A DNA stretch of 64,000 bases, taken from positions 1 to 64,000 of the forward strand of contig NZ_JADQBZ010000018.1 of assembly GCF_016278365.1 (NCBI RefSeq), read 5' to 3'. This DNA comes from Methanolobus sp. GTDB lineage: Archaea; Halobacteriota; Methanosarcinia; Methanosarcinales; Methanosarcinaceae. The notes under the pieces were generated by a model. The model saw nothing but the letters and a program-made list of their open reading frames with translations, was not told the DNA's origin and did not search any database. A program made the translations under genes and the position numbers. Within the stretch, counting starts at the first letter, position 1. Each line of letters opens with the position of its first letter. Positions 234 to 56,299 of this stretch are shown here, piece by piece.

Positions 234-3131
234 GTGATGTCAAGTACCACCCCGGCATCACCGTTCCAGACCCCTCTTGTCGTTCCTCGCACAAATCAGG
301 ACAGACGCATCGCAACAGCATACAATCTACTGAACGCATATCTGGAAGGATTGTACATAGTCCATAAGACCACCCGTGCCGGATGTACAACAGCGCTGGT
401 AGCCGAGTCCTTGAACCGGGAGGAACGTTTTCTAGTCGTCGTCCCGACTAATAAGATTGCCGATAAGACCGTTATAGAGGATTCCGTCAAGTATTCTGAC
501 AGGAACACATCCAATGTTATTCGGATACCCTCTAATCATGCCTGCCTGAAGAACCAGGAGCTGTGTGAGAAGTATCCTGACCTTCACAAGCTACCGATCC
601 TGCCCCTTGCAGACAGTTGTCCGGAGTGTGAGAACTACTACTCTTGTCCTGTCACTCGTATACTCCATGAGCACAGGAGCTGTGACGGAATTGCACTCAC
701 GTATCAGAAACTTGTGGCACTGATGATGGCCTCCAGCAGCAGGCCAAACACCACGGCTGAGCAGGTGCTGGTGAACATATCCCGCATCCATAATGCTGTT
801 TTTGATGAGGTTCACGAGATACAGTACGGCAGGTCCACAGGCATAGCCATCTACAACGATGTTCGCAAGGATACGAAGTGGTTGGACACAAGCCGGTATA
901 TCCCACTCATGGAACACTTCGATCATATTCGCAAGGTGGTCGTTGCCTTTGGGATGATGATGGGCGAGGCGGACGTTCAGAATGCTGTGATGCAGACGTA
1001 CAATAATGCTGCAGATGACAACTATTACCGGCACAAGCTGAGCAAGACCCTCAAGAACTGCTATTGCGACGTGGGCGAGGACAGTGCAAAGTTCATTATG
1101 GCAGTGTATAGCGATATCATCAAGCTTACCATTGCCAGGAAAGAATACAAGCTGTCCATGCTCGATGTGCTTGACCTGTACAGGATAATGAACATTGTCA
1201 TGAGCGAGCAGGTCGTGATACACGGCACCCGTGACCGGGGAGCTATCAAGATATGGATGGTCGCAGTGGACCGGATGTTCACCAGCATGCTTAGCTCCTT
1301 TATCATGAGCATTCAGAACAAAGCTCGACGTACACTGCTCACATCAGCTACCATCTGCAGCCATGATTATGACCAGTACTTCATGGACAGGACCTGCCCG
1401 CACGACATTACCTTCGGGATGGGTGGGGATCCCATGGACACCAACTCGAAAATGCTCATCCTGGCGGATTCAAAGCGGTACCATGTTACTGGTGGAAGGT
1501 CACGATATAACAAGAAGCACGAGATCCTGCAGAGGATAACCACCTTACTGGATCTGTACGGGGATGACGACTGCACAATAATCACACTGAGCATAGCGGA
1601 GGCTATGGAGATGGAGAAAGAACTGGAAGCATTCGGTCATCCACACCATGTGACCTACTACAAGGCACCTGAAATGATGGGCATATCATCTGATGCCCGG
1701 GTGATGATAGCCGTAGGTTTGGCCGATAAACCGAGCAACGCATTCGATGCGATATGCGAAACAAAGGAGAAGTCACTGGTATTGCGGGAGGAAGCGGTCC
1801 ATTGTGATACGTGGCAGGCATGGTCCAGGGCCAAGGACCCAGCCGGTGTGGTTCCAAGCCTTGTGTTTGCATTGGGTTGTACCCTGGAGCAGTGTGAGAG
1901 TATTGTTACATGGGGATTTGGTAGGAAAGTGGAGATAAAAAACAACGGTAATGGGAAAAAGCGGGAGGTGAAGGTTGTGCTTGACAGGAGTGTGATAACA
2001 TTTCCTCATATTATAAAATGTTCAAATTTCGAACATATGCTGGAAGCGGCGGAAACACACAAACCATTTAAAAAATTTCTAGTAAAGTTAAAAGAGAAAA
2101 GAACAATTGAACAAAAACCGCTTATATATTCTATTATAAGCGGTTTGCTGACAAAAGTTCGGTATGTTTTACAATGTTCGAAATTTGAGCTCATCAAATC
2201 CCATCTGATAAACAGGTTCGATGCATTTGCAGAACAGAATGTTAATGGGACCAAGTATTTCCGAGTATCAATTCCAATAACCGACAGGCTCATTGAGAAC
2301 CATATTGCAGGCAAGATAACCATCGGTGCTTATTCCACAAGCAGGGACGGAACTTGTAAGTGGATATGCTTCGATGTTGATGCCCACAGAAAGCCAGAAG
2401 ACAGTGAAGAAGATGTTATTGAGAAGGAGTTGAAGGCAGAACATGATCTGAAGAAGCTCACTTCCTTTCTAGATAATGTTGGATTGAAGTGCCTGGTTGA
2501 GTCTTCCGGTTCTCCTCATTCATATCATGTGTGGATGCTTATCGAGGAAGTCGCAGTCGAGAAAGCTTACTACTTCGCCAATGCAATTGCTAAGGAAGCG
2601 GGTTTTGATGGTGAGGTGAACCCAAAACAGAGGACATGGAACAAGGACAACCAGTATGGTAACCTTGTGAAGCTGCCTTTTGCATTGCACAGAAAACACA
2701 GGGTATTTTCGCATATCCACGGATGGGAAGGTGAAACCATGGACATTGCTGTCTATGATATTTCGAATATCGAGATCCCAAAGGCAAGAACGAACAGAAG
2801 CAGGTCCTTGAGACCAGTTAATGTAAAAATTAAAGGAGTAAGGCCATGCATCCTGGCTGCTCTTGAAAAAGATCTGTCCGGTGACCAAGGCAATAAGATG
2901 CGAGTGGCTATTGTTCGGGAATTCTACAGTTTTGGCATGGCAGATAAGGAACAGCTCATCGATCTGTTCAGGGGCCAAAACGATTTCGATCATGGAAAAA
3001 CAGAGTATCACGTCACCAAGATCATTGAAAGAGATTTCAATGTCTGGCCCATGGAGACCTTGCTTGAAAGATGTCCTAGGTACCTGAACTGCGAGAACTG
3101 TGATAGGTTCGACTGCAGGGGGGCACAATGA
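234..3131 (+). CDS. helicase-primase fusion with TOTE-type archaeo-eukaryotic primase domain
   Basis: A 965-residue two-part replication protein. The N-terminal half looks like a superfamily 2 helicase: P-loop-like TTRAGCTT at residues 46-53, DEVH Walker B at 191-194 and a later TSATIC motif III. Between P-loop and DEVH lies a Cys cluster (C104, C111, C129, C132, C138), placed like the Fe-S or zinc insert of XPD/DinG-like helicases. The C-terminal half, from about residue 655, resembles the archaeo-eukaryotic primase domain of TOTE conflict systems: FDVDAH with catalytic D714/D716, then SPHSYHVW (H762, H765), then LVKLPFALHRK. A four-Cys cluster closes the protein. The Walker A Lys appears replaced by Cys (AGCTT instead of G-K-T). 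GAGGGGG lies upstream of the ATG. The stop overlaps the next start (ATGA), indicating an operon. It probably replicates an integrated element; a defence role is possible. The domain calls come from motifs only. Confidence 0.8.
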   Translation: MMSSTTPASPFQTPLVVPRTNQDRRIATAYNLLNAYLEGLYIVHKTTRAGCTTALVAESLNREERFLVVVPTNKIADKTVIEDSVKYSDRNTSNVIRIPSNHACLKNQELCEKYPDLHKLPILPLADSCPECENYYSCPVTRILHEHRSCDGIALTYQKLVALMMASSSRPNTTAEQVLVNISRIHNAVFDEVHEIQYGRSTGIAIYNDVRKDTKWLDTSRYIPLMEHFDHIRKVVVAFGMMMGEADVQNAVMQTYNNAADDNYYRHKLSKTLKNCYCDVGEDSAKFIMAVYSDIIKLTIARKEYKLSMLDVLDLYRIMNIVMSEQVVIHGTRDRGAIKIWMVAVDRMFTSMLSSFIMSIQNKARRTLLTSATICSHDYDQYFMDRTCPHDITFGMGGDPMDTNSKMLILADSKRYHVTGGRSRYNKKHEILQRITTLLDLYGDDDCTIITLSIAEAMEMEKELEAFGHPHHVTYYKAPEMMGISSDARVMIAVGLADKPSNAFDAICETKEKSLVLREEAVHCDTWQAWSRAKDPAGVVPSLVFALGCTLEQCESIVTWGFGRKVEIKNNGNGKKREVKVVLDRSVITFPHIIKCSNFEHMLEAAETHKPFKKFLVKLKEKRTIEQKPLIYSIISGLLTKVRYVLQCSKFELIKSHLINRFDAFAEQNVNGTKYFRVSIPITDRLIENHIAGKITIGAYSTSRDGTCKWICFDVDAHRKPEDSEEDVIEKELKAEHDLKKLTSFLDNVGLKCLVESSGSPHSYHVWMLIEEVAVEKAYYFANAIAKEAGFDGEVNPKQRTWNKDNQYGNLVKLPFALHRKHRVFSHIHGWEGETMDIAVYDISNIEIPKARTNRSRSLRPVNVKIKGVRPCILAALEKDLSGDQGNKMRVAIVREFYSFGMADKEQLIDLFRGQNDFDHGKTEYHVTKIIERDFNVWPMETLLERCPRYLNCENCDRFDCRGAQ

Positions 3132-3361
3132 CCTTCAATCCAGTATCTCTTCTCTGCATCAACTGCAATGAGGGGACTTCCATTACAAGGCCGGTTGATG
3201 AGGTTACCTGCTACAAATGTGGAGAGAAGGTAAGGCTATCCATGATATCTGTGGTAGAAACAGAGGATAGCTGGTTGGAAAGGACCACATGCCAGAGGAA
3301 GTCGAACGCAAACCAAAAAGATGGATATTTTCGAACATTCAAAAAAGAGGGAATGAGATGA
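3128..3361 (+). CDS. small zinc-ribbon protein
   Basis: A 77-residue protein whose N-terminal half carries two CxxC pairs (CINC near residue 10 and CYKC near residue 29), a four-Cys zinc ribbon. The C-terminal half is basic. The ATG overlaps the helicase-primase stop codon (ATGA) and its own stop overlaps the next start in the same way, so the three genes are translationally coupled. It may be a nucleic-acid-binding accessory of the element. No specific family is recognised. Confidence 0.65.
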   Translation: MTFNPVSLLCINCNEGTSITRPVDEVTCYKCGEKVRLSMISVVETEDSWLERTTCQRKSNANQKDGYFRTFKKEGMR

Positions 3362-3543
3362 CCACCAAAAAAGTAATTCTGCAAACGATTAGAAAACACT
3401 GCCTTGAATGTGTATGCGGTTCGCCGATGGAAGTTGAGCTGTGTACATCTGAGAATTGTGAACTATATCCTTACAGGTTTGGGAAGGACCCACAGCCAAA
3501 CCTTCGCAGATCAAAGATTATGGCTGGCAATAACACAGATTAA
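3358..3543 (+). CDS. small Cys-rich provirus-type protein
   Basis: A 61-residue protein beginning MTTKKVILQTIRKHC. The core CLECVCGSPMEVELC followed by LYPYRFGKDP resembles small proteins I know from provirus regions, which share an IRKHC.xC.GGS...VxxC......PYRxGxxP pattern. Five Cys could bind a metal. I chose the inner ATG at 3358 because it overlaps the previous stop (ATGA) and has GAGGG about 7 bases upstream; a longer frame opens at 3289. Function is unknown. Confidence 0.6.
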   Translation: MTTKKVILQTIRKHCLECVCGSPMEVELCTSENCELYPYRFGKDPQPNLRRSKIMAGNNTD

Positions 3544-3682: not shown

Positions 3683-4021
3683 ATGGGAATACAACAAATC
3701 AACATTCCGGAACTGAGACCTTTCGTGGACAACCCGAAGAACCATCCCGGAAACCAGATTAGTATGCCAAAGCAGTGCATCTGGACCAATCCTATCTTTA
3801 TCATATCCGATAAGATGGTATTAGCAGGTCCTGCAAGGCTTCCGGCTGCCCCTGAGCCGGGCCTGTTTGGTGGTTTTAGCACAACAGTGATTGAGTTACA
3901 TCAACTTGATACTCGCTATGTCGATGTCATAGTTCAAATATATGTCAATCTGACCAGCAACCGCGAACTGAAACGAAATTGGGAGACATACACATGGGAA
4001 GAAAGAAAGGCAGCACAATAA
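3683..4021 (+). pseudogene. internally deleted ParB-DNA methyltransferase fusion
   Basis: The 112-codon frame joins two ends of what looks like one larger protein. Residues 1-60 follow the ParB/Srx N-terminal pattern (DNPKNHPGNQI, then TNPIFI, then AGPARLPAA in place of the usual AGHGRLxAA). The next residues, LFGGFSTT and then LDTRYVDVIVQIYVNLTS, match the DxFGGSGTT and LDPRYxDVIVxRWxxLTG C-terminal pattern of adenine/cytosine-N4 DNA methyltransferases found fused to ParB domains in proviruses. The few hundred residues between are missing. A good SD (AGAGGATATT before ATG) remains, so a short product could still be made, but methylation activity is not expected. Confidence 0.65.
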
Positions 4022-4428
4022 TGGCCGAAGTGTCCGAGCCGCTCATCAAGCTTCTCAAATCCGGTGTCCCTGTTATCCATGCATGTGATGCTGTAGGGAT
4101 AACTTCTGTCACCTACTACGACTGGATGAGGCGCGGGGAACAAGAAACAACAGGGCAGTATCATGATTTCTACCTTCAGATAAAACAGGCCAGGGCAGAG
4201 GCCATTGCCAGGAATGTTGCCATTATCCAGAAAGCAGCACCTCATACCTGGCAGGCTGCAGCATGGTGGCTTGAGCGCACATGTCCTGCTGAGTTCGGTA
4301 AGCGGGGAGTTGAGATCAATATGACCCAGAACAATGTCGAGATCAATACAGATGAAACAAGAGAGAGGATCACTAGCAGAATCAATAGCATCGCTGCCAA
4401 GATCAGAGCGCCAGAAGATCCTGAGTGA
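3994..4428 (+). CDS. phage terminase small subunit-like protein
   Basis: A 144-residue protein. MGRKKGS is followed by an HTH-like N-terminal region (PLIKLLKSGVPVIHACDAVGI then TYYDWMRRGE) and the motif RNVAIIQKAAPHTWQAAAWWLER...EFGK, typical of provirus terminase small subunits that recognise DNA for packaging. I chose the ATG at 3994 because GGGAG lies about 9 bases upstream and the family usually starts MGRKK. The gene overlaps the preceding remnant by 28 bases, and the large-subunit remnant follows directly. The frame looks intact although its partner is destroyed. Confidence 0.7.
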   Translation: MGRKKGSTIMAEVSEPLIKLLKSGVPVIHACDAVGITSVTYYDWMRRGEQETTGQYHDFYLQIKQARAEAIARNVAIIQKAAPHTWQAAAWWLERTCPAEFGKRGVEINMTQNNVEINTDETRERITSRINSIAAKIRAPEDPE

Positions 4429-4780
4429 TATCGGCGATGAAGTGCTCCAAGAGTTGGAATACGACTGGAAGTTCTGGGCCAGGAGATGATCGGGGATGCT
4501 AGGTGTCGAAGGTTGTTAATCTCCTGTGCATTGTTGGCGTGGACCCTGCGGTCAGATATTTCTTGGGACCACCCATCCACGCACCACCGACTAAATGGGT
4601 ACAGGAGATCATTGCAGCCTACTAAAAAAACACTCTGCAGACAGGGTCATCGGGGAAATGAACAACTGTGGGATATGCTCTGCAGACAATCGATCCGAAT
4701 GTATTCTACAAATCAGTAAGGGACAGCCTGCAAAATTGCAAGCATCAGGCTACATCCGTCTTGAACCATCACTCAAGTGA
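4380..4780 (+). pseudogene. terminase large subunit remnant with deletions and frameshifts
   Basis: Pieces of a TerL protein lie in three frames. Bases 4380-4488 encode SLPRSERQKILSDIGDEV and on to LEYDWKFWAR, the usual TerL N-terminus, then a stop. About 4510-4623 encodes LLCIVGVDPAV and PPTKWVQEIIAAY, matching the nuclease-domain VVxVDPAV and PxEWAxxVVxxY segments. The next frame gives SADRVIGEMNN, another LQTIDPNVFYKSVRD, and the first again GQPAKLQASGYIRLEPS, matching ADRVVxExNxGGxMVxxTLRTVDPNVxxKxVxASxGKxxRAEP. The ATPase part is gone. Order and spacing match TerL well enough that chance is unlikely. Confidence 0.65.
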
Positions 4781-4811
4781 ACACTCCATCTGCTTCACCG
4801 GCTGTTCAACT
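4767..4811 (-). repeat. IS200/IS605-like right-end relic, copy 1
   Basis: About 45 bases related to 9311-9357. Read on the minus strand both copies follow GTTGRACAGCCKGTGAAG, then a GGAGT..TCAC block, then TTGAGTGRTRGTTCA. The TAGTTCA-type end and short CACT..AGTG palindrome resemble the ends of the intact IS605-type elements in this window. No transposase remains. Being a transposon end is an inference; the repetition is directly visible. Confidence 0.4.
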
Positions 4812-4945
4812 TAATTATGCTTTTAATTTTTCATTATCATGAAATACTTAAAACTAATAATAGTAAAAGAGTGGTTTAGATCAGAAGAGATGACATTCTT
4901 TTCGTTAAGGAGTGGAAACTGTCAAACTTGAGCTATTATATAATT
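4812..4945. repeat. dispersed repeat, copy A
   Basis: Starts TTAATTATGCTTTT, continues through an AT-rich stretch to AAAAGAGTGGTTTAG, and ends near TTTTCGTTAAGGAGTG. The same order of blocks occurs at 24867-24990, and its last 60 bases resemble 23226-23290. It follows directly on the IS605-like relic. No open frame is present. Together with that relic it fills most of the gap before the gene at 5109; the rest (to 5108) is AT-rich promoter sequence. Confidence 0.5.
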
Positions 4946-11113: not shown

Positions 11114-13658
11114 CATGTTTCTTCCTATTCATTAAAATAGCAGCTCCTATCCCCAGGACAAGTACGAGGCCAACCACCCAGAAAAGAATGCCTGATCCTT
11201 CTTCCGTCTCAACAGGGGTTCCTTCTTCCTGGACAACATGAACATCGGTATCCTTCCCTTGAGTCTCAGCTGCTATCAATGGTGTCTCTTCACCATCTGC
11301 TCCAAACAGTGCATAGAGTGAGAAGTGGCTGATCATTGCAGTTGCTCTGCCGTTTTCCCAGTCAACTGTTGTCTCAAGGGATATCCATCCATCTTCAGAT
11401 GTGTAGGTATAGATAACTGGAGCTCTTCCTTCAAAGTCTTCGGGATTGAAGTCCATCGTTATCATGACATCCTGGCTGAATGTAGTGCCTGACGGACCGA
11501 ACCTGAAGTAGAGACCGGACTCAATAACCTCTCTTGGAGTATCTGAAGGCAGGGTAGATGGAGTAGTTACTATGATACTGTTCACAGGGTTGCCTAATGG
11601 ATCAAGGGCCTTTGTTCCCGTGAACAGTGTCAGGGTGGTGGTTGAATCCGAGGATTTAACAACAGTATCTTTGCTCAGTCCTCCATCACTTCCCCGGGGC
11701 AGATCGGTTATAGTTCCCTGGCTTCTTTCCCTTGCGATAACTGAGCTGCCGGTTCTTTCTGAATCCTTGAAAAGTGCCAATGTAACTATACGTGGAGCAG
11801 GTGCGAGTACTGTTCCACCACCAATGGTAATTTCAGGTGCATCGATGCTTGCAGATACATAGTTGTGCTGGGTATTGAGTGTAGAGCCCGGAACCTTAAC
11901 CCATCCGTTGCCACTGAGATTATACAGGGCCACTGAAGATTCTCCGGCAGTGCTCATTCCCGAATCATCATATGAGAATTTGATGTCCATACCCATAGGA
12001 ACATACATGGGCATACTTGCTATACCATAATTCAAATAGGCAATGTCCACATAACCATTTACATTCGTTTTTCCTGACGGAGATGCAGGAGCTGAGTATC
12101 TTTCGCTTAGGTGTATATCATAAAAGTTTCCAGCAAAAGAAATCCCGGCAAGACCACCGGTAACCACCAGTTTATTGACAGTTATGTTTTCCGTTTCCCT
12201 GACCCGTAATGCATAATCACTGCCGGTTGCATGGTTTTCGGATAACGTTGTGTTGTAACAAAACAAAACTTCTATGCCATATGAAACAGGGTCACTTACC
12301 ATAATGGACGCGTAGTTATCCAGAAGAACAAAATCCTGTAAAGCATCGCGTTTTGAATTTCTTTCAATTCCGTATGTAGTCAACCAGAAGTTCTCGACGG
12401 GTTCACTATCCATGGTTTGAATTGCATTTATAGAGTACTCACTGTTGCTATCGTCAGCAGTATTCCCGATAAGCAGATTATCACGAGAGTCACTGATTCT
12501 AATGCCTGCACGAGCATTTCTATTTGCAGTGTTGCTACTTAGGGTGTTATTGTTTGAGTCATAAAGACCAAGGCCAATATAATTTTCATTAGCCGTATTA
12601 CCGGACAGAATAATACCAGTTGAGTCATAGGCACCTATTCCCTGATAGCCATTTCCACTGACGGTATTGCTGCTCATAGTAATGTTATTTGAAGAACAGA
12701 GCTGAACTCCTGTGTCATCATTGTTATTTATTGTATTGCTGATCAAACGATTGTTATCGGAGTTATGATTGTGAATTCCGTAGTAACTATCATTGACTGT
12801 TATGCTGGTGACAGTATTGAAGTTAGAATTAAGTAGTAAAATGCCGTCATCACAAAATGATATGTCTACATTCTCGATTTTTGAATTGCTAGTATTTATA
12901 AATGCTATGCCCTCTAGAGCATGGGATACTGTAATATCCTTAACAGTAATGTTGCTGGAATTTACAGCGTACACCTGCCCGGCATCGGAAGGCACTTCTA
13001 TATTTGCTTCATTGACTAGATAATATAATGTTTTTCCATCAACTTGATTGCTGGAATCAATATTATGTAAATAATACTCCAGATTGTCCGGGTCCGAGGA
13101 CAAAATACCAAAATTATAGTAGGCGGATGACATTGTATTATTACTGAGGGTACAATTTATGGAATCTATCAGAATAATAGAAACGGAATTAGAACTAAAT
13201 GAGTTATTGTTCAAAGTCATGTTATTTGAATCCAAGATGACAATACCACTCGTGTATTGAGATAGTTCATTGTTTATTATAGTGCAGTTAGAAACAGAGT
13301 GTGCTAAAACGCTAATCACTGAGCTTGTACCACTTTTAATATGGAATCCGTCAATAGTTACATTGTTGGCAGCTATAATAAATACCGATGTGTCAGAGTC
13401 AGGTTGAATTATTGTGCTGGCAGAACCATTCTCAGAGCGAATCGTAATTGGTTTCTGGATGCTAATATTTTCAGTGTAAATCCCATCTCCGACAATAATA
13501 ACATCATAATAACTTGCACTATTATATGCTTCAGTAATAGTCGAGTATGTTTCACTTTCACCGACTCGGATTTCGGCACCGGACGCCGTATTGATGTATA
13601 AAGCCAGTACAAACAATAGTACTAAGTATCTAAATATTATATTTCTGTCTATTTTCAT
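11103..13658 (-). CDS. beta-helix (NosD/CASH-type) surface protein, paralogue 1
   Basis: An 851-residue exported protein. A signal peptide (YLVLLFVLALYINTASGA) leads to EIRVGESETYSTITEAYNSA and DGIYTENISI, the usual start of periplasmic NosD-like beta-helices. Parallel beta-helix repeats rich in NNTLSSNTAN-type turns follow to about residue 500. A C-terminal domain of about 200 residues (IVTTPSTLPSDTP..., YFRFGPSGTTFSQDV, HFSLYALFG) precedes an acidic linker, one membrane helix (LFWVVGLVLVLGIGAAIL) and NRKKHGEL. I chose the ATG at 13658 because AGGTG lies 5-8 bases upstream; a longer frame starts at 13697. The tail and 3' flank are nearly identical to the paralogue at 17776. It is likely a cell-surface carbohydrate-interacting protein. 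Confidence 0.8.
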   Translation of the reverse strand: MKIDRNIIFRYLVLLFVLALYINTASGAEIRVGESETYSTITEAYNSASYYDVIIVGDGIYTENISIQKPITIRSENGSASTIIQPDSDTSVFIIAANNVTIDGFHIKSGTSSVISVLAHSVSNCTIINNELSQYTSGIVILDSNNMTLNNNSFSSNSVSIILIDSINCTLSNNTMSSAYYNFGILSSDPDNLEYYLHNIDSSNQVDGKTLYYLVNEANIEVPSDAGQVYAVNSSNITVKDITVSHALEGIAFINTSNSKIENVDISFCDDGILLLNSNFNTVTSITVNDSYYGIHNHNSDNNRLISNTINNNDDTGVQLCSSNNITMSSNTVSGNGYQGIGAYDSTGIILSGNTANENYIGLGLYDSNNNTLSSNTANRNARAGIRISDSRDNLLIGNTADDSNSEYSINAIQTMDSEPVENFWLTTYGIERNSKRDALQDFVLLDNYASIMVSDPVSYGIEVLFCYNTTLSENHATGSDYALRVRETENITVNKLVVTGGLAGISFAGNFYDIHLSERYSAPASPSGKTNVNGYVDIAYLNYGIASMPMYVPMGMDIKFSYDDSGMSTAGESSVALYNLSGNGWVKVPGSTLNTQHNYVSASIDAPEITIGGGTVLAPAPRIVTLALFKDSERTGSSVIARERSQGTITDLPRGSDGGLSKDTVVKSSDSTTTLTLFTGTKALDPLGNPVNSIIVTTPSTLPSDTPREVIESGLYFRFGPSGTTFSQDVMITMDFNPEDFEGRAPVIYTYTSEDGWISLETTVDWENGRATAMISHFSLYALFGADGEETPLIAAETQGKDTDVHVVQEEGTPVETEEGSGILFWVVGLVLVLGIGAAILMNRKKHGEL

Positions 13659-13770
13659 AAAAACACCTATATGATTGGGAATAGGTTTTATATGCAATTT
13701 ATTAATATAAAAAACGTTGTATGTAAGTAAAATGCTTTTCTGCCATCACTGAAAGCAGAAGGATGGTATA

Positions 13771-13992
13771 TTATTTCTTAAGAAAAGACTCCTTATTTGG
13801 AGCAAAGATTTCGACTGTTACTTCAGAATCTACAGTATCATGATCATCGATCGTAAACAGAGAAGTTAGTGCTCCAGCAAAAGCGAATGGGAAGGCTACA
13901 AAGAAAACACGACAGTATAACACAAGCTCTGTAAAATTACAAGTTTCTTGATATTTTAGAGTTAAAAATTCAATACTAAAAATAAATTTTCT
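13771..13992 (-). pseudogene. possible remnant of a membrane protein
   Basis: Minus-strand frame of 73 codons with no start codon, closed by TAA at 13771-13773. It encodes a hydrophobic segment (RVFFVAFPFAFAGALTSLF) and then an acidic tail (IDDHDTVDSEVTVEIFAP...ESFLKK). The composition looks like the C-terminus of a membrane protein, but I do not recognise a family. It is cut by a stop just upstream, so only a fragment remains. Confidence 0.35.
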
Positions 13993-14458
13993 CTAATACT
14001 TATAATAACTTGACTTGCAATTTATAGCAAACTCGCTACACTGCCCTCTGCCTCCACAAATGAATGTATTAGAAGAGCATTATCTTGTTTCTCACTCTAA
14101 GGACACTTATGAGTTAACAATGATTGGGCTCTGTAGAAAACCTATTTCCTGCTGAAAATGATTTGTTGCTTTTAAAAGACTAGACCCTCAAAGTATTGTC
14201 TACAACAGAAAACACAAAGTGGATGATTAGTTTTTTTTGGCAGCAGGTTAATACTTTAGGGTTTGTTTTGGCCAGCTCTTCTTCACTTATTCAAAAAGAT
14301 GTTGTAGAATTACAGTATTAAGATTTTGTATCCATTTGTTTTTATATGACTATGATAATTATATATTATCCCATATACCAGTGTGCCTGCTATAATTTTT
14401 GGTCACAATTACTCTCGTACTTTTTAATTTATAGATTCTTTTTGATAGAAGGTGTAGT
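13993..14458. other. intergenic region without recognised gene
   Basis: AT-rich sequence between the remnant above and the kinase gene. TTATATATTATCCC near 14360 could be the TATA region of the kinase promoter. No convincing frame or RNA was seen on either strand. Confidence 0.5.
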
Positions 14459-17326
14459 ATGAATACTGAAGTCTTAATAGCTCTCGTAAATAATGTGGCT
14501 CTACTATTAGTTATTGCTTTCCTTTACGAGGTTCTTTTTTTTAAATGTGAAATGAACACACACTTTAAAAATATCATTGCAGGTTTTTTCATTGGTATGG
14601 TAGGCATCGCCTTGATGCTAAATCCATGGGAACTTTCCCCGGGAGTATTCTACGACACACGTTCTATTTTGCTTAGTATCGTCGCCCTCTTCTTTGGTTT
14701 TATTCCTGCAGTCCTTGGAGCACTTTTAGTGGTTTCTCATCGTCTCTATCAAGGAGGTATTGGAGCAACTGCAGGTGTCGCTGTAACAATATCTTCTGTA
14801 ATATTAGGACTGCTATGGAGACAGCATTCTGAAAAACAGGATAAGTTATTTAGTATGTTCGAGCTGTACGCTTTTGGTATTCTGGTTCACGTAGTCATGC
14901 TTATCTGTATGTTACTACTCCCATGGCCATATGCCTTCGAGGTTTTAGGACATATAAGTTTACCAGTAATGTTGATCTATCCTATTGGAACTGTGCTACT
15001 GGGAGCCCTTCTAAAAAACCAGTCATTCTGTATAAAAACGCAGGATGCTTTGAAGGGAAACGAGTTGATGCTTCGAAGTTTCATAAACAGTGTCCCTATA
15101 GGAATGTTCCGTCTGAGTTCCGACAGAAAAGTGCTTCATACAAACCCAGAAATGGCATACATTTTAGGTCTGCAAACACCTGAAGAAGCCTCGAGTTACT
15201 TCCAGGAGATGGGGGAGCGGATATATGTCGATCCCAAACGCCGTGAAGAGTTGATAAAGATCCTTAAAACTCAAGGCCATGTTGAGAATTTTGAATATGA
15301 GTTTTTACGTGCAGACGGCAATCGCAGATGGCTTTTAATGAATGTGAAAAAGAACAGTGACCCAAAAACAGATTCATTCGTAATTAACGGTTTCGTCCTT
15401 GACATCACTGATCGTAAAAAAGCAGAAGAAATGCTGAAGCAAACTGAACGAAAATACCGAGATGCATACGGCCTTTTGCATGGAGTTATGGAAAGTCCAA
15501 AAGATATTGTCATATTTGCTCTTGACAGAGAATATCGTTATCTAGCCTTCAACGAAAATCATCGTATAACAATGGAGCAGATATGGGGGGCCAAGATCGA
15601 GGTTGGGATTAGCATGCTCACTTACATCAAGGACCCTGCAGACCGAGAAAAAGCAAAAGTCAACTTTGACAGGGTGCTTGCAGGTGAAGCCTTCACAATT
15701 GTCGAAGAATATGGGGACTCATCGCTTAATAGGTTTTATTATTCTAATACTTATAGCCCCTTAAAAGATGCTGAAGGGGACATAATTGGCATTACTCTTA
15801 TCCTAGAGGATATCACATCGCGTAAACATGCAGAAACGGAACTGGAAAGAAGCCGTGAACAATTCAGGTTGGCGGTGGATGGTTCACATGATGGCATATG
15901 GGATTGGGATGTGCATAATAACAATCTGTATTTGTCTTCCCGATGTAAAGAGATGATTGGTTATGAGGATCATGAGCTTCAAAACGTGTATTCAATAATT
16001 GAAAATTACATTCATCCTGACGATAAACAAAGGGTAATAAATGATCTGGAAGAATATCTTGAATTAGAAGCACCAGAGTTCAACATAGAATTCCGCTTAA
16101 AACACAGAAATGGAAACTACATTTGGGTCCAGGCGAGAGGTAAAGCCCTAAGAGATGAAGAAGGTTTGGCTTATAGGATGGCAGGTTCTCTTACAGACAT
16201 TACTGAACGCAAAAAAACTGAGATAAAAATTGCTGAAGAAGCTGTCAGAAGACGTGTTCTTATAGAACAATCCAGTGACGGCATCGTTATCCTCGACAAG
16301 GATGGAAAAGTTTTCGAAGCAAATCCGAAATATGCTGAGATGCTTGGTTATTCGCTGGAAGAGGTACTTTCTTTGCATGTATGGGACTGGGACGCACAGT
16401 TTACACATGATGAATTGGAGAATCTGCGCCGTAAGGTTGGTGAGATGGGCGATCATTTAGAGACTATACATCGTCGCAAGGACGGTACTCTCTTTGATGT
16501 TGAAATTAGTTCAAACGCAGCCATGTTCGGAGACCAGAAACTGATATTCTGTGTATGCAGAGATATCACCGAACGCAAACGAGCAGAAAAAGAACTGCTG
16601 CATGCTAAACTTGAGGCCGAATCTGCCAATAGGGCAAAGTCACAGTTCATTGCAAACATGAGCCATGAATTAAGGACTCCACTTACTGCCGTAATTGGCT
16701 TTTCAGATATTCTTAGCATGAATGTTCATGACAAGCTAACTGAAAAAGAAATGGGATATATTGATCATATAAATAAAAGTGGAGAGCATTTACTTGAGAT
16801 CATAAATTCTATTCTCGACCTGTCAAAAATAGAAGCAGAACAAAGAGAACTTGAACGCGAGATATTTTATGTAAAGGAAGTAATCGACAACATTGTTACT
16901 ATGATGACTCCTATAATAGAAAGAAAAAATATCAGCATTATAGTTGATGATAAAATCCAGTCAGACAAAATTATTGCTGACAAGCTGAAGTTCAAACAGA
17001 TTATGTACAACCTGCTCGGTAATGCCATTAAGTTCACGCCAGATAATGGTAAAGTTTCTGTTACTGCAATAAAGAATGATAATAAGATACAGATATCTGT
17101 CTCAGATACAGGGATTGGAATACCAGACGAAAAGCTGAATGATATATTTATTCCATTCATGCAGGTAGATGAATCGAACAAAAGGGCGTACGGTGGGACA
17201 GGATTAGGACTTCCCCTTGCCAAACAATTTGTTGAAATGCACAACGGAAATATCTGGGTGACGAGCGAAGAAGGGAAGGGGAGCACGTTTACTTTCACAA
17301 TTGCAGATCAAGACATTATTTGCTGA
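14459..17326 (+). CDS. membrane sensor histidine kinase with four PAS domains
   Basis: A 955-residue kinase. Residues 1-190 form about six membrane helices of the 5TM-LYT (LytS/YhcK) type, with the HRLYQGGIGA motif typical of that sensor. Four PAS domains follow (about 200-320, 330-455, 460-590 and 595-715). HisKA has the phosphorylated H736 in SHELRTPL. The HATPase part has NLLGNAIKF, DTGIGIP and GGTGLGLPLAK. There is no receiver domain, and no response regulator gene is adjacent. The fourth PAS resembles the third PAS of the hybrid kinase at 42110 (both with RRxLIEQSxDG and WDWDxQ). GAAGGTG lies 5-8 bases before the ATG. Its ligand is unknown. Confidence 0.85.
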   Translation: MNTEVLIALVNNVALLLVIAFLYEVLFFKCEMNTHFKNIIAGFFIGMVGIALMLNPWELSPGVFYDTRSILLSIVALFFGFIPAVLGALLVVSHRLYQGGIGATAGVAVTISSVILGLLWRQHSEKQDKLFSMFELYAFGILVHVVMLICMLLLPWPYAFEVLGHISLPVMLIYPIGTVLLGALLKNQSFCIKTQDALKGNELMLRSFINSVPIGMFRLSSDRKVLHTNPEMAYILGLQTPEEASSYFQEMGERIYVDPKRREELIKILKTQGHVENFEYEFLRADGNRRWLLMNVKKNSDPKTDSFVINGFVLDITDRKKAEEMLKQTERKYRDAYGLLHGVMESPKDIVIFALDREYRYLAFNENHRITMEQIWGAKIEVGISMLTYIKDPADREKAKVNFDRVLAGEAFTIVEEYGDSSLNRFYYSNTYSPLKDAEGDIIGITLILEDITSRKHAETELERSREQFRLAVDGSHDGIWDWDVHNNNLYLSSRCKEMIGYEDHELQNVYSIIENYIHPDDKQRVINDLEEYLELEAPEFNIEFRLKHRNGNYIWVQARGKALRDEEGLAYRMAGSLTDITERKKTEIKIAEEAVRRRVLIEQSSDGIVILDKDGKVFEANPKYAEMLGYSLEEVLSLHVWDWDAQFTHDELENLRRKVGEMGDHLETIHRRKDGTLFDVEISSNAAMFGDQKLIFCVCRDITERKRAEKELLHAKLEAESANRAKSQFIANMSHELRTPLTAVIGFSDILSMNVHDKLTEKEMGYIDHINKSGEHLLEIINSILDLSKIEAEQRELEREIFYVKEVIDNIVTMMTPIIERKNISIIVDDKIQSDKIIADKLKFKQIMYNLLGNAIKFTPDNGKVSVTAIKNDNKIQISVSDTGIGIPDEKLNDIFIPFMQVDESNKRAYGGTGLGLPLAKQFVEMHNGNIWVTSEEGKGSTFTFTIADQDIIC

Positions 17327-40410: not shown

Positions 40411-40456
40411 GGTTCTACTGAACCCTTACGGAGTCTCAACCTTGGACAAGGTTGAG
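40393..40456 (-). ncRNA. predicted 3' part of TnpB omega-RNA (reRNA), element 1
   Basis: Read on the minus strand, three hairpins follow each other over the end of tnpB and the right end: CTCAACCTTG / CAAGGTTGAG, GGTTC / GAACC and CAACGAC / GTCGTTG. TnpB proteins process such transcripts, using sequence beyond the right end as guide. Here the guide would come from the trkH remnant (below 40393). Fold and position fit the known arrangement; expression is not shown. Confidence 0.55.
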
Positions 40457-41800
40457 CAATTGCTGATTCATCGTCGGAACTTGCACTCCAGTTATACAAC
40501 TGGTTGTAGAGGTTCCAGCTCCACAGCCGTTAATTCCCGCGAGCCTCACGGTATCCTTGTATGTTTTAGATTTCCTGAGGATGTTGACCGCAGCGTTGAT
40601 ATCTCTGTTTAACGAAGATTTACAATGCTCACAATCAAATATCCTATCTGCTAACGTTAGTTTGGTCTTTTTCTTCTTTCCGCATACAGAACATATCTGA
40701 GAAGTATTCTTAGGATCAACCTTTTCAACTGTTTTTCCCTTCTCAGCAGTCTTGTATTCAGTATGCTGGACAATCCTTGACCATCCTGCATCGTGAATAG
40801 ACTTGGCTAGTCTTGAGTTCCGGACAAGATTTTTAATTTTCAGGTCCTCAAATACTATCAGGTCGTACTTACTAACAAGCATCTTGCTCAAACAATGTGA
40901 AAAATGATTCCTTGCCTTAGCTACTTTTCTGTGAATCCTGTTCACTTTTTTCTTTTGTTTAAGGTAGTTATGGGAGCCATATTTCATTCTTGCAAGTTTT
41001 TTCTGTTCGATCGCCAACCTATTCTCTGCTTCTCTGAACAATTCAGGTGGTTCAATGAGTTCACCATCTGAAGTTGCTATTAATGATTCAAGACCAAGAT
41101 CGATACCTACCATAGTTATTGGTATAATTGGTTCAGGATATTCTGGGATTTCAATCGTTATAAAAGCAAACCATTTGTTGCCTTCCTTTTTAATCGTGCA
41201 CGTCTTAAGTTGACCATTTAACAGATCATGATCAACATCGATCATTATCAGGTTGTTTTTGTTGGTTATCTTTGACAGGAACAATCCATCTTCAGTCAGT
41301 ACCCAACCGTTATTATGTTGCTTGTACGTGAAACTATGATAATCGTCTTTGCCTTTGAACCTGGGATGTCCTTTTGGCAGAATTCCATCATATTTGATGA
41401 ACTTTGAACCTTTATTATCTGAAACTGAATAAAGAAAGTTTCCTGCAGGAACATCTTCCCTTTTGACAATAGTTCCTTTTCTTGGTTTGAGTCCTCTAAG
41501 TCTTCCATTCTTGATATCATCAAGGAACTTAAAGTATGCCTGTTGTACCCTTTCGAACACATTCAGTCTAACATGAGAATGTATATTATTGGTATAATCG
41601 AAGAATTTGAGCTGCTTTTCAAGCATTCTTGAATCAGGATATAGTCCATATACATCAAACAGTTGAACTCTTGTTGATAGAAGGTCGTTCCATAGTCTTC
41701 TGCAGGTTTCCATGGTTTCTTCCAACTTTATTTCCTGTTCTGGAATTGGATGAATAGGAAACCTGAGGTTTCTACAATTTTGACCGTTCTTTCGTACCAT
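40436..41800 (-). CDS. tnpB: TnpB RNA-guided endonuclease, element 1
   Basis: A 454-residue TnpB. An N-terminal REC/wedge-like half is followed by a RuvC nuclease split by a zinc ribbon: D234 (VGIDLGLES), E318 (IVFEDL) and D400 (NRDINAAVN). All three catalytic acids and four zinc Cys (C370/C373, C390/C393) are present. TnpB uses an omega-RNA from the element's right end to cut DNA beside a short motif. I chose the ATG at 41800, with AGGTGA 4 bases upstream; an upstream ATG at 41839 adds a Cys-rich stretch not typical of the family. The 3' end overlaps the RNA hairpins. Confidence 0.85.
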   Translation of the reverse strand: MVRKNGQNCRNLRFPIHPIPEQEIKLEETMETCRRLWNDLLSTRVQLFDVYGLYPDSRMLEKQLKFFDYTNNIHSHVRLNVFERVQQAYFKFLDDIKNGRLRGLKPRKGTIVKREDVPAGNFLYSVSDNKGSKFIKYDGILPKGHPRFKGKDDYHSFTYKQHNNGWVLTEDGLFLSKITNKNNLIMIDVDHDLLNGQLKTCTIKKEGNKWFAFITIEIPEYPEPIIPITMVGIDLGLESLIATSDGELIEPPELFREAENRLAIEQKKLARMKYGSHNYLKQKKKVNRIHRKVAKARNHFSHCLSKMLVSKYDLIVFEDLKIKNLVRNSRLAKSIHDAGWSRIVQHTEYKTAEKGKTVEKVDPKNTSQICSVCGKKKKTKLTLADRIFDCEHCKSSLNRDINAAVNILRKSKTYKDTVRLAGINGCGAGTSTTSCITGVQVPTMNQQLLNLVQG

Positions 41801-42109
41801 ACATTCACCTGAAAAACAACAACAGTATATTGTTTTCAAATTATTTTAATGTTGCTTTTTTGTTTGCTTTTTTAAGAGGTGGGGTACGATTCATCCCACA
41901 GCTAAAGCAGTGGGCTTTCTCTACCCCTACACCCCGTTAATCGTAAATTATTAAAATGTTCGCATCAGTACCGTTTACACTTCAGATAGAACACTTTCAT
42001 CCTCTACCTGTCGCTTTGCTTCGGGGAAGAGGACTTCCCGTTCCAATATTTAAAATATATGTTGTGGCATTCAAATTAATTAAATCTGTATGATTAAGTG
42101 CAAAAAAAG

Positions 42110-47763: not shown

Positions 47764-47800
47764 GTGAACTACCACCGGTTAAAACCGGTGGCTTCCTACT
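47764..47800 (-). ncRNA. predicted 3' end of TnpB omega-RNA, element 2
   Basis: Hairpin CCACCGGTT / AACCGGTGG (47772-47791) overlapping the tnpB stop codon and closing with TAGTTCAC on the minus strand, as at the right ends of IS605 elements. The guide part would be the bases just below 47764, that is, the 5' leader of the kinase gene. The upstream scaffold inside tnpB cannot be delimited by eye. Confidence 0.5.
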
Positions 47801-49038
47801 TCGTTCCCCTGACTTGTGCCAGTGAGTCCATAGGCTCTTCCCACAGTTCCTGCGGTGTTTAAGTTACTCAATGCTATTTTCTTGCTGTTGATAGATGCAT
47901 TGATGTCTCTGTCATGCAATGTTTTACATGCTGGACATTTCCATTCCCTGATATCAAGAGTTAATTCCTTGAACTTGTATCCACAGACATTACACAATTT
48001 AGAGGATGCATCAAACCGACCTATCTTCAGGATAGTTTTGCCAAACCATTCTGCCTTGTAGATCAACTTGTCCACAAATCCAGACCAACCAACATCACTG
48101 ATGCTTTGAGCTAAACAATGATTCCTAACCATTCCTTTTACATTCAGGTCTTCTATCGCAATGGCTTGACTTTCGCGAATTATCATTGCTGAGACCTTAT
48201 GCTGGAAATCGTATCTCTGGTTAGCTATCAACTGATGATGTTTTGCAAGTCTGGCAACAGCTTTTTTCCTATTCTTTGAACCTTTCGGTTTTCTGGATAC
48301 ACTCCTCTGTAATTTGACGAGTTTCTTCAGTGACCTTTTCAGGAACTTAGGATTTTCAATTTCTTCTCCTGTTGAGAGAACAGCAAAGGTCTTGATGCCA
48401 ACATCAATTCCAACGGTTGTTTCCTCCGTAAATAATTCAGGTTCAGGATAAGGTGCGTGGTCTTCGATCAGAATACTTACGTGATATCTTCCAGCCGATG
48501 TCCTGGAAACTGTTACTGTCTTGAGAACCTTGAATTCCTTGTTTAATTTCTGATCAAGGATAATTTCTCCGTTAACTTCCTTTGTCACAAGGTTATTCTC
48601 AATGAATTCCTTGCTCAGAAAATCCCGATGAAGAATTATCTTTATCCAACCTATTTTTGGGAAATATATTTGAGAGGAAGTCAGGTTGATCTGATAGTTT
48701 TGAGGGATCTGAAATGAGAAATGGTTGTCTTTCTTACTTTTCCAGGTTGGATAGGAACCATTTCCTTCAAAGAAGTTCTTGAATCCCGTCAACAAATTCC
48801 GGTTGGCTTGTTGCAATGATTGAGAATTAATATCTTTTAACCAGGTAAACGTTTCCTTGAGGGAAATAAGATGGTTATTAAGATCTATCTCCGTAACGTT
48901 TACTTTGAACTTTCCATACATCAGATTCTTGATTGAAAGAGAACGATTGTATACGAATCGAGCAGCTCCAAAATGTTGCTCTAACAAAGCGCTTTGTTCT
49001 CTGTTTGGATAGATTCGATATACATTACCCTTTTTCAT
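47779..49038 (-). CDS. tnpB: TnpB RNA-guided endonuclease, element 2
   Basis: A 419-residue TnpB starting MKKGNVYRIYPN. Catalytic RuvC residues are D212 (VGIDVGIKTF), E296 (AIEDLNVKGM) and D378 (HDRDINASIN), with a zinc ribbon C349/C352 and C368/C371. All are present, so it should be an active omega-RNA-guided nuclease. It is clearly a different lineage from element 1 (different N-terminus and spacing). The ATG at 49038 is the only good start. Confidence 0.85.
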   Translation of the reverse strand: MKKGNVYRIYPNREQSALLEQHFGAARFVYNRSLSIKNLMYGKFKVNVTEIDLNNHLISLKETFTWLKDINSQSLQQANRNLLTGFKNFFEGNGSYPTWKSKKDNHFSFQIPQNYQINLTSSQIYFPKIGWIKIILHRDFLSKEFIENNLVTKEVNGEIILDQKLNKEFKVLKTVTVSRTSAGRYHVSILIEDHAPYPEPELFTEETTVGIDVGIKTFAVLSTGEEIENPKFLKRSLKKLVKLQRSVSRKPKGSKNRKKAVARLAKHHQLIANQRYDFQHKVSAMIIRESQAIAIEDLNVKGMVRNHCLAQSISDVGWSGFVDKLIYKAEWFGKTILKIGRFDASSKLCNVCGYKFKELTLDIREWKCPACKTLHDRDINASINSKKIALSNLNTAGTVGRAYGLTGTSQGNEVGSHRF

Positions 49039-54388: not shown

Positions 54389-56299
54389 ATGCTTGTGGAA
54401 GAAAATAGGATATCGTATCATGAGTCAGTGCGTACAGCCTACAAGAGAATAAAAGATGACGGCATGACAAATATCTGGGACCGGTATGAGGCACAGGGGA
54501 TGGGCGGTGATCCTGACCGGAGATGTAGCTTCTGTCAGGGCGGGATGCGTTGTGACCTCTGTTCCAATGGTCCCTGCCGTGCCAATGCAGTAAAGGACAA
54601 GAGAGGAGTGTGCGGGATAACGGCCGATGGCATGGCAATGCGCATGATGCTTCTGCGAAATGTTATGGGGGCCTCTACCTACCAATACCATACTGCTCAG
54701 ACCATCAAGACCTTGAGAGCCACTGCCAGGGGCGAGACACCGTTTAAGATAGTCGAGGAAGATAAGCTGAGAAGCTTTGCGGGCAGGCTTGGGATTGATA
54801 GTTCCGGTCCGGTAAATGAGGTTGCTTTAAGGCTTTGTGGTCTTGTGGAAGAGGACTTTAACAGGGAATATGGGCAACCGAGCAGGATAGTTGAACTGCT
54901 TGCCCCGCAAGAACGCCAGCAATTATGGAAGAAGCTTGGCATTTTCCCCGGTGGCATCCACACCGAGATATTAAGGGCCACAAGCTCCTGCCTGACAAAC
55001 GTGGATGGGAATTACGTCAGCCTGGCCTTAAAGGCAATGAAGCTTGGAATAGCCATGGCATACCAGAGTCAGATCGTCAATGAATACTGTCAGGACATGA
55101 TCTTCGGGATACCCAGGCCGCATAATATGCGTGTGGACCTGGGGGTGCTGGACCCGGACTATGTAAACGTACTGCCCAACGGCCATGAACCTTTCCTTGG
55201 ATTTGCTATGGTCCAGCTTGCAAGACAGGCAGAGTGGCAGGAAAAGGCAAAGAGCATGGGTGCAAAGGGTCTCCGGATCATTGCAAATATAGAGACCGGC
55301 CAGGAAATGATCCAGAGGTGGGATATGGATGAGGTATTGTATGGTTTCACCGGGAACTGGATAATGCAGGAAGCAGTTATGGCAAGTGGTTGTGTGGATG
55401 TCTTTGTGTCGGATATGAACTGTTCCATGCCGATAGATCCTGTCTATGCCGAAAAGTACAGGTTCAAGCTCATCCCGGTAAGTGACCTGATATCATTTGA
55501 AGGAGTCACAGACCGCATTGAATACGTACCCGAAAAAGCAAGTGAGCAGGCGGCACAGCTGCTTCAGATGGGAATCGACAATTTCAAGGAGAGAAGGTCG
55601 ACCGTAGTGCCGATAACAGGACAACCTTTCAGTGAAGCTGTCGTGGGATTTTCTACTGAGAGCATAGTGGATGCGCTTGGCGGGAAACTTGATCCGCTTC
55701 TGGACGCCATCAAGGCGGGAACGCTGCGCGGGGTAGCGGGTCTTGTATCCTGTACCACTTTGCGGGATACGGGACAGGATAACCATAGCATCGATATTGC
55801 AAAGGAACTCATTAAACGGGATGTACTTGTACTCTCTATGGGATGCGGTAACGGTGCCATGCAGGTGGGGGGACTTTGCAGTCCTGAAGCCAAAGATCTT
55901 GCAGGTCCGGGGCTTCGGTCTGTCTGCGAGGCTCTGGGAATCCCGCCTGTACTGAGCTACGGGACATGTACCGACACCGGGAGACTGGCAGACCTGCTTG
56001 CTGCGGTTTCTGAGGGTCTTGGCGGGGTTGCGATTCCTGACCTGCCGGTGGTAGCGACAGCGCCTGAATATATGGAGCAGAAGGCTACCATAGATGCTGT
56101 CTTTGCCCTGGCCCTGGGACTTCATACGCATGTGAACCCGGTCCCGACGGTCACAGGTGGTCCGGACCTGGTAAAGTTGCTCACCCATGATTGCAAAGAC
56201 ATAACAGGAGGTCTCCTCAACGTAGAAACTGACAGTGTGAAAGCTGTTGATATGATGATGGAACACATCGAGGACAAGCGCAGGGTATTGGGTATTTGA
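54389..56299 (+). CDS. cooS: anaerobic CO dehydrogenase catalytic subunit CooS
   Basis: A 636-residue nickel CO dehydrogenase of the monofunctional CooS class, which interconverts CO and CO2. The N-terminal Cys set (CSFCQGGMRCDLCSNGPC...GVCG) supplies the D and B 4Fe-4S clusters. The Ni-Fe-S C-cluster ligands all have counterparts: His in NGHEPFLG, Cys in ASGCVDVF and DMNCSMP, C455 (LVSCTTL), C486 (SMGCGNG) and C527 (YGTCTDTGR), with Lys in MEQKAT. No cooF or cooC (nickel loading) is adjacent, and it is not part of the ACS/CODH cluster. The start is uncertain: ATG at 54389 has its SD too close, and the in-frame GTG at 54395 is better spaced from GAGGG. Confidence 0.85.
   Translation: MLVEENRISYHESVRTAYKRIKDDGMTNIWDRYEAQGMGGDPDRRCSFCQGGMRCDLCSNGPCRANAVKDKRGVCGITADGMAMRMMLLRNVMGASTYQYHTAQTIKTLRATARGETPFKIVEEDKLRSFAGRLGIDSSGPVNEVALRLCGLVEEDFNREYGQPSRIVELLAPQERQQLWKKLGIFPGGIHTEILRATSSCLTNVDGNYVSLALKAMKLGIAMAYQSQIVNEYCQDMIFGIPRPHNMRVDLGVLDPDYVNVLPNGHEPFLGFAMVQLARQAEWQEKAKSMGAKGLRIIANIETGQEMIQRWDMDEVLYGFTGNWIMQEAVMASGCVDVFVSDMNCSMPIDPVYAEKYRFKLIPVSDLISFEGVTDRIEYVPEKASEQAAQLLQMGIDNFKERRSTVVPITGQPFSEAVVGFSTESIVDALGGKLDPLLDAIKAGTLRGVAGLVSCTTLRDTGQDNHSIDIAKELIKRDVLVLSMGCGNGAMQVGGLCSPEAKDLAGPGLRSVCEALGIPPVLSYGTCTDTGRLADLLAAVSEGLGGVAIPDLPVVATAPEYMEQKATIDAVFALALGLHTHVNPVPTVTGGPDLVKLLTHDCKDITGGLLNVETDSVKAVDMMMEHIEDKRRVLGI

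Follow-up and report, generated by a model that had tools for sequence, protein, structure and literature searches.

Comparison with described helicase and primase systems

Helicases of the DinG/XPD (Rad3) type belong to superfamily 2 (SF2), translocate 5'-3' and carry a 4Fe-4S cluster between motifs I and II. Viral helicases joined to a primase of the archaeo-eukaryotic primase (AEP) kind are represented by herpesvirus UL5-UL52 and poxvirus D5, the helicases of which belong to SF1 (UL5) and SF3 (D5) and not to the DinG/XPD-type SF2 class. The gene described here occupies positions 234-3131 of the plus strand of a 64,000-nucleotide stretch of DNA (hereafter the window) from an archaeon of the genus Methanolobus (genome G000, contig C2). 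It has a GTG start and a frame open throughout, and its 965-residue product, like UL5-UL52 and D5, appears to combine a viral helicase with an AEP primase, but the helicase is predicted to be of the DinG/XPD type. The helicase domain spans residues ~1-620 (234-2093), followed by the AEP primase domain (residues ~661-823; 2214-2702) and a domain resembling the C-terminal part of PriL (residues 868-961; 2835-3116). The gene has a dN/dS of ~0.11 relative to its orthologues L004 and L030.

With DinG/XPD and CasDinG, the window protein shares the predicted fold, a cysteine cluster between motifs I and II, the DE-H signature and profile similarity, whereas its family differs from them in a moved Walker A lysine, a changed motif VI and the fusion to AEP and PriL-like domains. 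With AEP-TOTE and the CRISPR-associated PrimPols (CAPP, 7nqf), it shares the primase domain, in which D714, D716, S763 and H765 are kept, but it has other partner domains and lies in a virus replication cassette. TOTE conflict systems are operons with a TPR protein and other conflict genes. In contrast, the neighbours scanned here encode RecA-like, ParB-methylase and terminase small (TerS) and large (TerL) subunit proteins, and none of them matches a TPR model.

In lambda-type terminases, a lysine at position 1 of the Walker A motif has been proposed to take over the role of the usual lysine, and deviant terminase Walker A motifs were reportedly treated by Mitchell and Rao in 2004. A paper on the D6E terminase discusses the arginine of the P-loop and refers to that 2004 study. 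In lambda terminase gpA (J02459), the Walker A motif is VVKSARVGYSKML, and its stretch KSARVGYSK resembles the loop of the window protein in having K at position 1, R at 4, G at 6 and S at 8, although gpA is a packaging motor. Kinship with lambda-type terminases was rejected, as the profile of our helicase alignment (A2) gives no match on gpA; we therefore read the shifted lysine as the same solution reached separately.

Fusion of an AEP with a PriL-related domain, as in the window protein, is known from mobile elements, namely from PolpTN2 of plasmid pTN2 and from the PrimPol-PV1 supergroup (PMC5862659, PMC3973330), and a figure legend of PMC5862659 includes SF2 helicases among the domains fused to AEP. 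The terms "DinG" and "Walker A" are absent from the main text of that paper, so it describes neither a shifted Walker A motif nor a helicase of the DinG type. In the open PMC literature, we found no title or abstract describing a family of helicase-primases with a shifted Walker A lysine. We propose that the window protein probably serves a tailed virus of Methanosarcinales as its replicative primase-helicase, the gene being preserved in a decayed provirus. The domains, the conserved lysine shift, the cysteines and the genomic slot are established at the level of sequence; enzyme activity, the direction of translocation, the Fe-S nature of the cluster and the role of K45 are inferred.

Exchange of primase-helicases in a virus replication slot

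The strongest evidence for a primase-helicase role in virus replication comes from the exchange of genes at one position of the virus cassette. Among 100 evenly drawn genomes of the family, we located 17 places with a virus-type RecA-like gene. The test set comprised 16 readable places; G016:C16, which runs off the contig end, was left untyped, and G022:C3, with two short fragments, was dropped. The slot following the RecA-like gene is occupied by the helicase-primase in seven places (the window, G005, G139, G013:C3, G016:C15, G021:C104 and G158), by a Prim-Pol/DUF5906 protein in three (G000:C8, G026 and G021:C80), by a DnaG/D5 protein in four (G000:C18, G004, G013:C11 and G021:C51) and by none of these in two. 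When a methylase or terminase is also present on the far side (11 places), the respective numbers are 3, 3, 4 and 1. The helicase-primase count includes G016:C15 and G021:C104, which are cut by contig ends within the gene, and G158, where the ATPase reaches only 36-37%, small open reading frames (ORFs) intervene and there is no methylase match.

The complete order of RecA-like gene, helicase-primase, ParB-methylase, TerS and TerL is found in G005 (L068) and G139 (L071). Downstream of the helicase-primase, the virus contig L002/L028 carries a TerL 68% identical to that of G005, and G158, which shares its genus code with a named Methanosarcina, carries a different TerL. All three kinds of primase-helicase coexist in G021 and in the window genome itself. 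There, the sister cassette C8 has an ORF of 843 residues with Prim-Pol and DUF5906 domains, together with a TerL 87% identical to that of G005, and the sister cassette C18 has an ORF of 1039 residues with a DnaG zinc ribbon, DNAG_N, Toprim and D5/DUF5906, together with a TerL in two pieces, 81-96% identical to that of G005. Contigs C2 and C8 each end within the shared RecA-like gene. In BLAST comparisons, the window protein has no similarity to the primase-helicases of the C8 or C18 type. The one exception is a stretch overlapping the RecA gene out of frame, and it implies that the 843-residue ORF (L169) really begins further in. Between the C8 and C18 types, the DUF5906/D5 helicase parts share ~26% identity.

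Because different primase-helicases are swapped between conserved neighbours, the window protein is most likely the replicative primase-helicase of the virus. Of the two roles suggested in a preliminary description of the locus, replication or defence, the shared slot favours the former. A DinG/XPD-type helicase would thereby be placed in a virus replication slot in which DnaG/D5 and Prim-Pol/DUF5906 proteins interchange within one genome.

The location downstream of a UvsX/Sak4-like ATPase, along with the DinG/XPD fold, would also suit a recombination-coupled helper, which would act at D- or R-loops, opening them in the manner of DinG and priming there with the RecA/Sak-like ATPase, and would leave the fork to a host helicase. 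We consider this unlikely, given that DnaG/D5 and Prim-Pol/DUF5906 primase-helicases fill the same slot beside the same ATPase.

Predicted fold and cysteine cluster of the helicase domain

The structure of residues 1-636 was predicted by AlphaFold2 from alignment A2, with a mean pLDDT of 86.5 and a pTM of 0.85. This alignment has 23 rows and excludes loop-less fragments (L006, the C-terminal part of L063, L067), L030 as a near-duplicate and L012/L137 as divergent. In a Foldseek search of the PDB, 20 of the 22 top-ranked chains bear the name DinG, CasDinG or XPD/Rad3 (best E-value 5e-14); the remaining two (9pd3_B and 7egc_7) come from repair and transcription complexes and are presumably XPD, and rank 23 is Hna. 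VIA-align gives Z-scores of 21.9 for DinG (8zef, 6fws) and 20.4 for XPD (8rev), over 449-516 residues. Profile comparison with hhalign yields probabilities of 94.7% (E-value 6.3e-8) and 87.6% against two DinG/XPD groups of related genomes, compared to 0.3-47.2% against nine ResIII control groups, and the PADLOC type IV DinG model is matched by 13 of the 23 members (best 5.7e-8). The N-terminal half of the window protein has no Pfam match above cut-off (ResIII reaches 15.7 of 22.5 bits) and none to DEAD_2 or Helicase_C_2 up to an E-value of 1; in the relative L148, DEAD_2 scores 16.6 bits, below the cut-off of 21. Judged by model and profiles, the N-terminal half is a DinG/XPD-like SF2 helicase. 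The previously noted motifs are in place: DEVH (Walker B, motif II) at residues 191-194 (804-815) and TSAT (motif III) at residues 370-373 (1341-1352), in addition to D714 and D716 of the primase.

The cysteine cluster lies between motifs I and II (543-647). All five cysteines of the stretch reported initially (C104, C111, C129, C132 and C138) are present, but conservation is limited to four: C104, C129, C132 and C138 are kept in all 23 aligned members, and C111 in seven. Four cysteines between the two motifs are also found in 12/12 sequences of a wider set and in 6/6 members of a second virus group described below. Together with the predicted fold, these invariant cysteines bear out the suggestion of a divergent helicase with an iron-sulphur (Fe-S)-type cluster, and the cluster is, by analogy with DinG/XPD, probably of the Fe-S type. 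A structural zinc site, with everything else as proposed, is rather unlikely: zinc and Fe-S sites look alike in sequence alone, but the four cysteines are placed as in XPD/DinG and the fold matches that of these 4Fe-4S proteins.

A Walker A motif with the lysine at position 1

The lysine of the Walker A motif is regarded as the constant element of P-loop ATPases, and proteins without it are usually taken to be inactive. In the window protein, the loop (366-392) reads K45-T-T-R-A-G-C-T-T53, with K45 at the place of the first glycine of GxxxxGK[ST] and a cysteine at the usual lysine position. The preliminary description had quoted TTRAGCTT at the place where the invariant lysine is expected and had missed the residue in front of it. 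The motif is indeed altered, but the lysine is not lost, since K45 directly precedes the quoted letters.

In all 39 sequences that read through the loop, including the window, the lysine is at position 1, and in none is it at position 7; the canonical GxxxxGK[ST] is replaced by KxxxxGx[ST] in 39/39. Homologues with a normal GKT, which would have refuted the preliminary description, thus number 0 of 39. A local mutation or sequencing error is ruled out by the same count. It combines 33 sequences listed with a regular expression, among them the divergent L137, and six others (L030, L017, L020, L041, the N-terminal part of L063, and L010). Copies of the same loci (L021-L027) and rescans (L028, L144, L155-L159) were not recounted, and L003, L007 and L016, which stop short of the P-loop, are outside it. 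The regular expression required the lysine; the alignments that show the same shift impose none. Some pattern scans contained KTTRAG and were thus biased toward the shifted form; a scan of viral contigs with the motif VI pattern alone gave ten loci, all carrying the shifted lysine, and agrees with them, as do the whole-sequence and profile searches.

K45 is the sole lysine invariant in the 23 rows of A2, followed by K159 (22/23). The usual lysine place is taken by C, A, G, F, M or Y in A2 and by V, L or F in later members, and R48 is replaced in two rows (C, Q). The predicted layout of the P-loop is normal, with a strand (39-44), the loop and a helix (51-61). The altered loop is more than chance, because K45 is present in 23/23 rows, the strand-loop-helix arrangement belongs to a confident model, the AEP-TOTE match scores 70 bits against a cut-off of 27 and dN/dS is low. 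Across the aligned sequences, the Walker A lysine is relocated, not lost, and the relocation is a fixed trait of the family. K45 would most likely contact the beta and gamma phosphates instead of the usual lysine. An SF2 helicase family that keeps its lysine at the other end of the loop is a natural test of the function for which this residue is required.

Motif VI is altered along with the Walker A shift. In the window protein, it reads Q528-AWS-R532-A-K534-D535 (1815-1838), and the family form is QxxxRx[KR]D, not QxxGRxxR, in 27 of 28 family rows (the exception being L057, QTTGRFKS) and in 6/6 members of the second virus group. In comparison, a set of 24 DinG/XPD proteins from the window organism and related genomes yields 24 QxxGRxxR matches (a total for the set, not per protein), and 22 of the proteins have a canonical GK[ST] P-loop, the other two giving no match to the expression.

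The absence of a position-7 lysine from every sequence and a motif VI without its second arginine might be taken to indicate a degenerate helicase that has lost hydrolysis and only binds DNA and positions the primase. This is improbable: K45, G50, T53, D191, E192, H194, T373, Q528 and R532 are invariant in the 23 rows of A2, as are the four cysteines, and the members with altered AEP aspartates (L018, L008, L034, L036, L037 and L039) retain both helicase motifs and cysteines, a conservation not accounted for if the domain did no more than carry the primase.

Primase and PriL-like domains

Residues 679-823 match the Pfam AEP-TOTE family (E-value 3e-19) at the score given above, which upholds the proposed link to TOTE-type primases for the domain itself; among the neighbours scanned, none is TOTE-like. 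The AEP part also matches the solved CRISPR-associated PrimPols 7nqf/7nqd, at 6e-13 and at ~2e-33 when the family profile is used. In structure comparison, 7nqf is retrieved with an E-value of 1.2e-12, 24-26% identity and a TM-score of 0.67-0.72 normalized by target length. The DxD and SxH active site consists of D714, D716, S763 and H765, all four of which are kept throughout the 17 rows of alignment A3. The two aspartates were not judged in L038, which has an internal stop, or in L062, where the AEP is in a separate ORF. A P-loop pattern scan of six AEP-bearing ORFs from outside the family (L011, L014 and L049-L052) found GKT in L049 only.

The C-terminal domain adds to the domains recognized initially. 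Residues 868-952 align with the C-terminal sequence of archaeal PriL (L013, L015) with an hhalign probability of 98.0% (E-value 1.9e-13); both references are named PriL by NCBIfam, L015 above the cut-off and L013 slightly below it. C872 is present, the cysteine of the CxTL motif is gone in the window clade and present in many relatives, and C947, C953, C956 and C961 follow downstream.

In the mechanism that we envisage, the DinG/XPD-type translocase would track along single-stranded DNA, 5'-3' by analogy with DinG and XPD, using a Walker A lysine moved from position 7 to position 1 (K45) and a motif VI changed alongside. The AEP domain would make primers, and the PriL-like domain may assist their start. 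A function in defence or conflict, as in TOTE or CRISPR-PrimPol systems, is very improbable, for although the AEP domain matches AEP-TOTE, DRT UG10 and CRISPR PrimPol models, the neighbours scanned belong to virus or replication functions and do not match a TPR or CRISPR model, and the CRISPR-associated PrimPol A1 model NF040561 gives 81 bits, under its curated score of 200.

Observations weighing against the assignment

Several observations weigh against the assignment as a replicative DinG/XPD-type primase-helicase. The global TM-score with DinG/XPD in Foldseek is only 0.36-0.47, with a large rmsd, which suggests that domains are arranged differently or that inserts differ. In VIA-align, DEAD-box proteins have Z-scores of ~20-21, tied with DinG, yet across only ~310-333 residues. 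Pfam matches in the family (E-value up to 0.1) are to ResIII (10/23) and DEAD (4/23), not to DEAD_2. With the second arginine of motif VI missing, hydrolysis could be weak. In the six members named above, at least one of the two AEP aspartates is missing, so priming is not a property of every member of the family. As for the genomic context, G013:C7 and G015:C48 have the RecA-like gene yet show no primase-helicase, and in G013:C3, the 3.6 kb visible after the helicase-primase contain neither a methylase nor a terminase. Finally, the copies L069, L026, L060, L061 and L072 lie less than 8 kb from integrases, and several have no virion genes recognizable by eye.

Distribution of the family and a second virus group

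Searches of 60, 237 and 392 genomes confine the relatives to the class of the window organism; in the last of these, a scan of the phylum, all 13 positive genomes belong to that class. The hosts are Methanosarcinaceae (named Methanolobus and Methanosarcina, and one Methanosarcinaceae metagenome-assembled genome), and further relatives comprise a divergent one in G050, which belongs to a different family of the order, and those of family f7. Identity within the family falls to ~20%. No match was obtained by tblastn in phage records, and a plasmid search gave three matches in Aliarcobacter, to the AEP part only.

Six of the ten loci from the motif VI scan lie on contigs of 71-86 kb and form a second virus group; five are new and one had been met in an earlier pattern scan. 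Their ORFs (1162-1282 residues, stop to stop) have similar parts in another order: AEP-like, PriL-like and then helicase. By eye, all six have an N-terminal DxD stretch with [ST]GxGx[HY], and all six have PPC[IV] in the PriL-like stretch; the AEP and PriL labels rest on these motifs. The helicase has K[TAS]TR[AC]G[FVL]TT and four invariant cysteines (6/6). The N-terminal part of L148, the single protein of the group that was scanned, has no library match. Near the permuted primase-helicase on the 80 kb virus contig of L148, positions 11837-15466 encode a DNA polymerase of family B that contains an intein-like insert. The second-group contigs presumably infect archaea.

Whether these proteins constitute a separate class of helicase-primase, present in at least two virus lineages, is in our judgement evenly balanced. 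In such a class, an Fe-S helicase of the DinG/XPD type, and not MCM, DnaB, D5 or UL5, would drive the fork with a lysine at position 1 and a matching motif VI, having arrived independently at the solution of lambda terminase. The combination of KxTRxGxTT and four cysteines offers a handle for finding such viruses.

The provirus locus and other features of the window

The first 4820 nucleotides of the window are a decayed Methanolobus tailed provirus; all its features are on the plus strand. Upstream of the helicase-primase, positions 3-176 encode the C-terminal end of the RecA/Sak-like ATPase, cut by the contig end and 86% identical to residues 297-354 of its homologue in G005 (L068:15378-16439), which matches the UvsX-like phrog_97. 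Downstream, a small Cys-rich protein of the cassette (3289-3543) has, by eye, a similar start at a similar place in L185 and L187. It is followed by a short ParB-N6 methylase gene (3683-4021), in which only the ends match (residues 1-65 and 350-409 of 409). A shortening of the same kind is seen in G026 (L184:4162-4512), and this form, found in two proviruses, may be more than decay. The terminase small subunit (3979-4428) matches phrog_4102 (E-value 2.2e-26) and is 77% identical to TerS of G005. The large subunit survives as broken remains (4352-4820), with an N-terminal piece at 4352-4486 and a C-terminal piece, containing stops, from ~4503-4536 onward.

Adjoining the C18 provirus, a repeat-like stretch beside Cas-like genes (L170:13515-18985) appears by eye to be a CRISPR locus. 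Elsewhere in the window, inspection by eye revealed two minus-strand ORFs resembling TnpB of transposons (40436-41839 and 47779-49038), a CooS-like ORF resembling the catalytic subunit of carbon monoxide dehydrogenase (54389-56299) and an IscB-type-looking ORF with an HNH-like motif (60744-62000).

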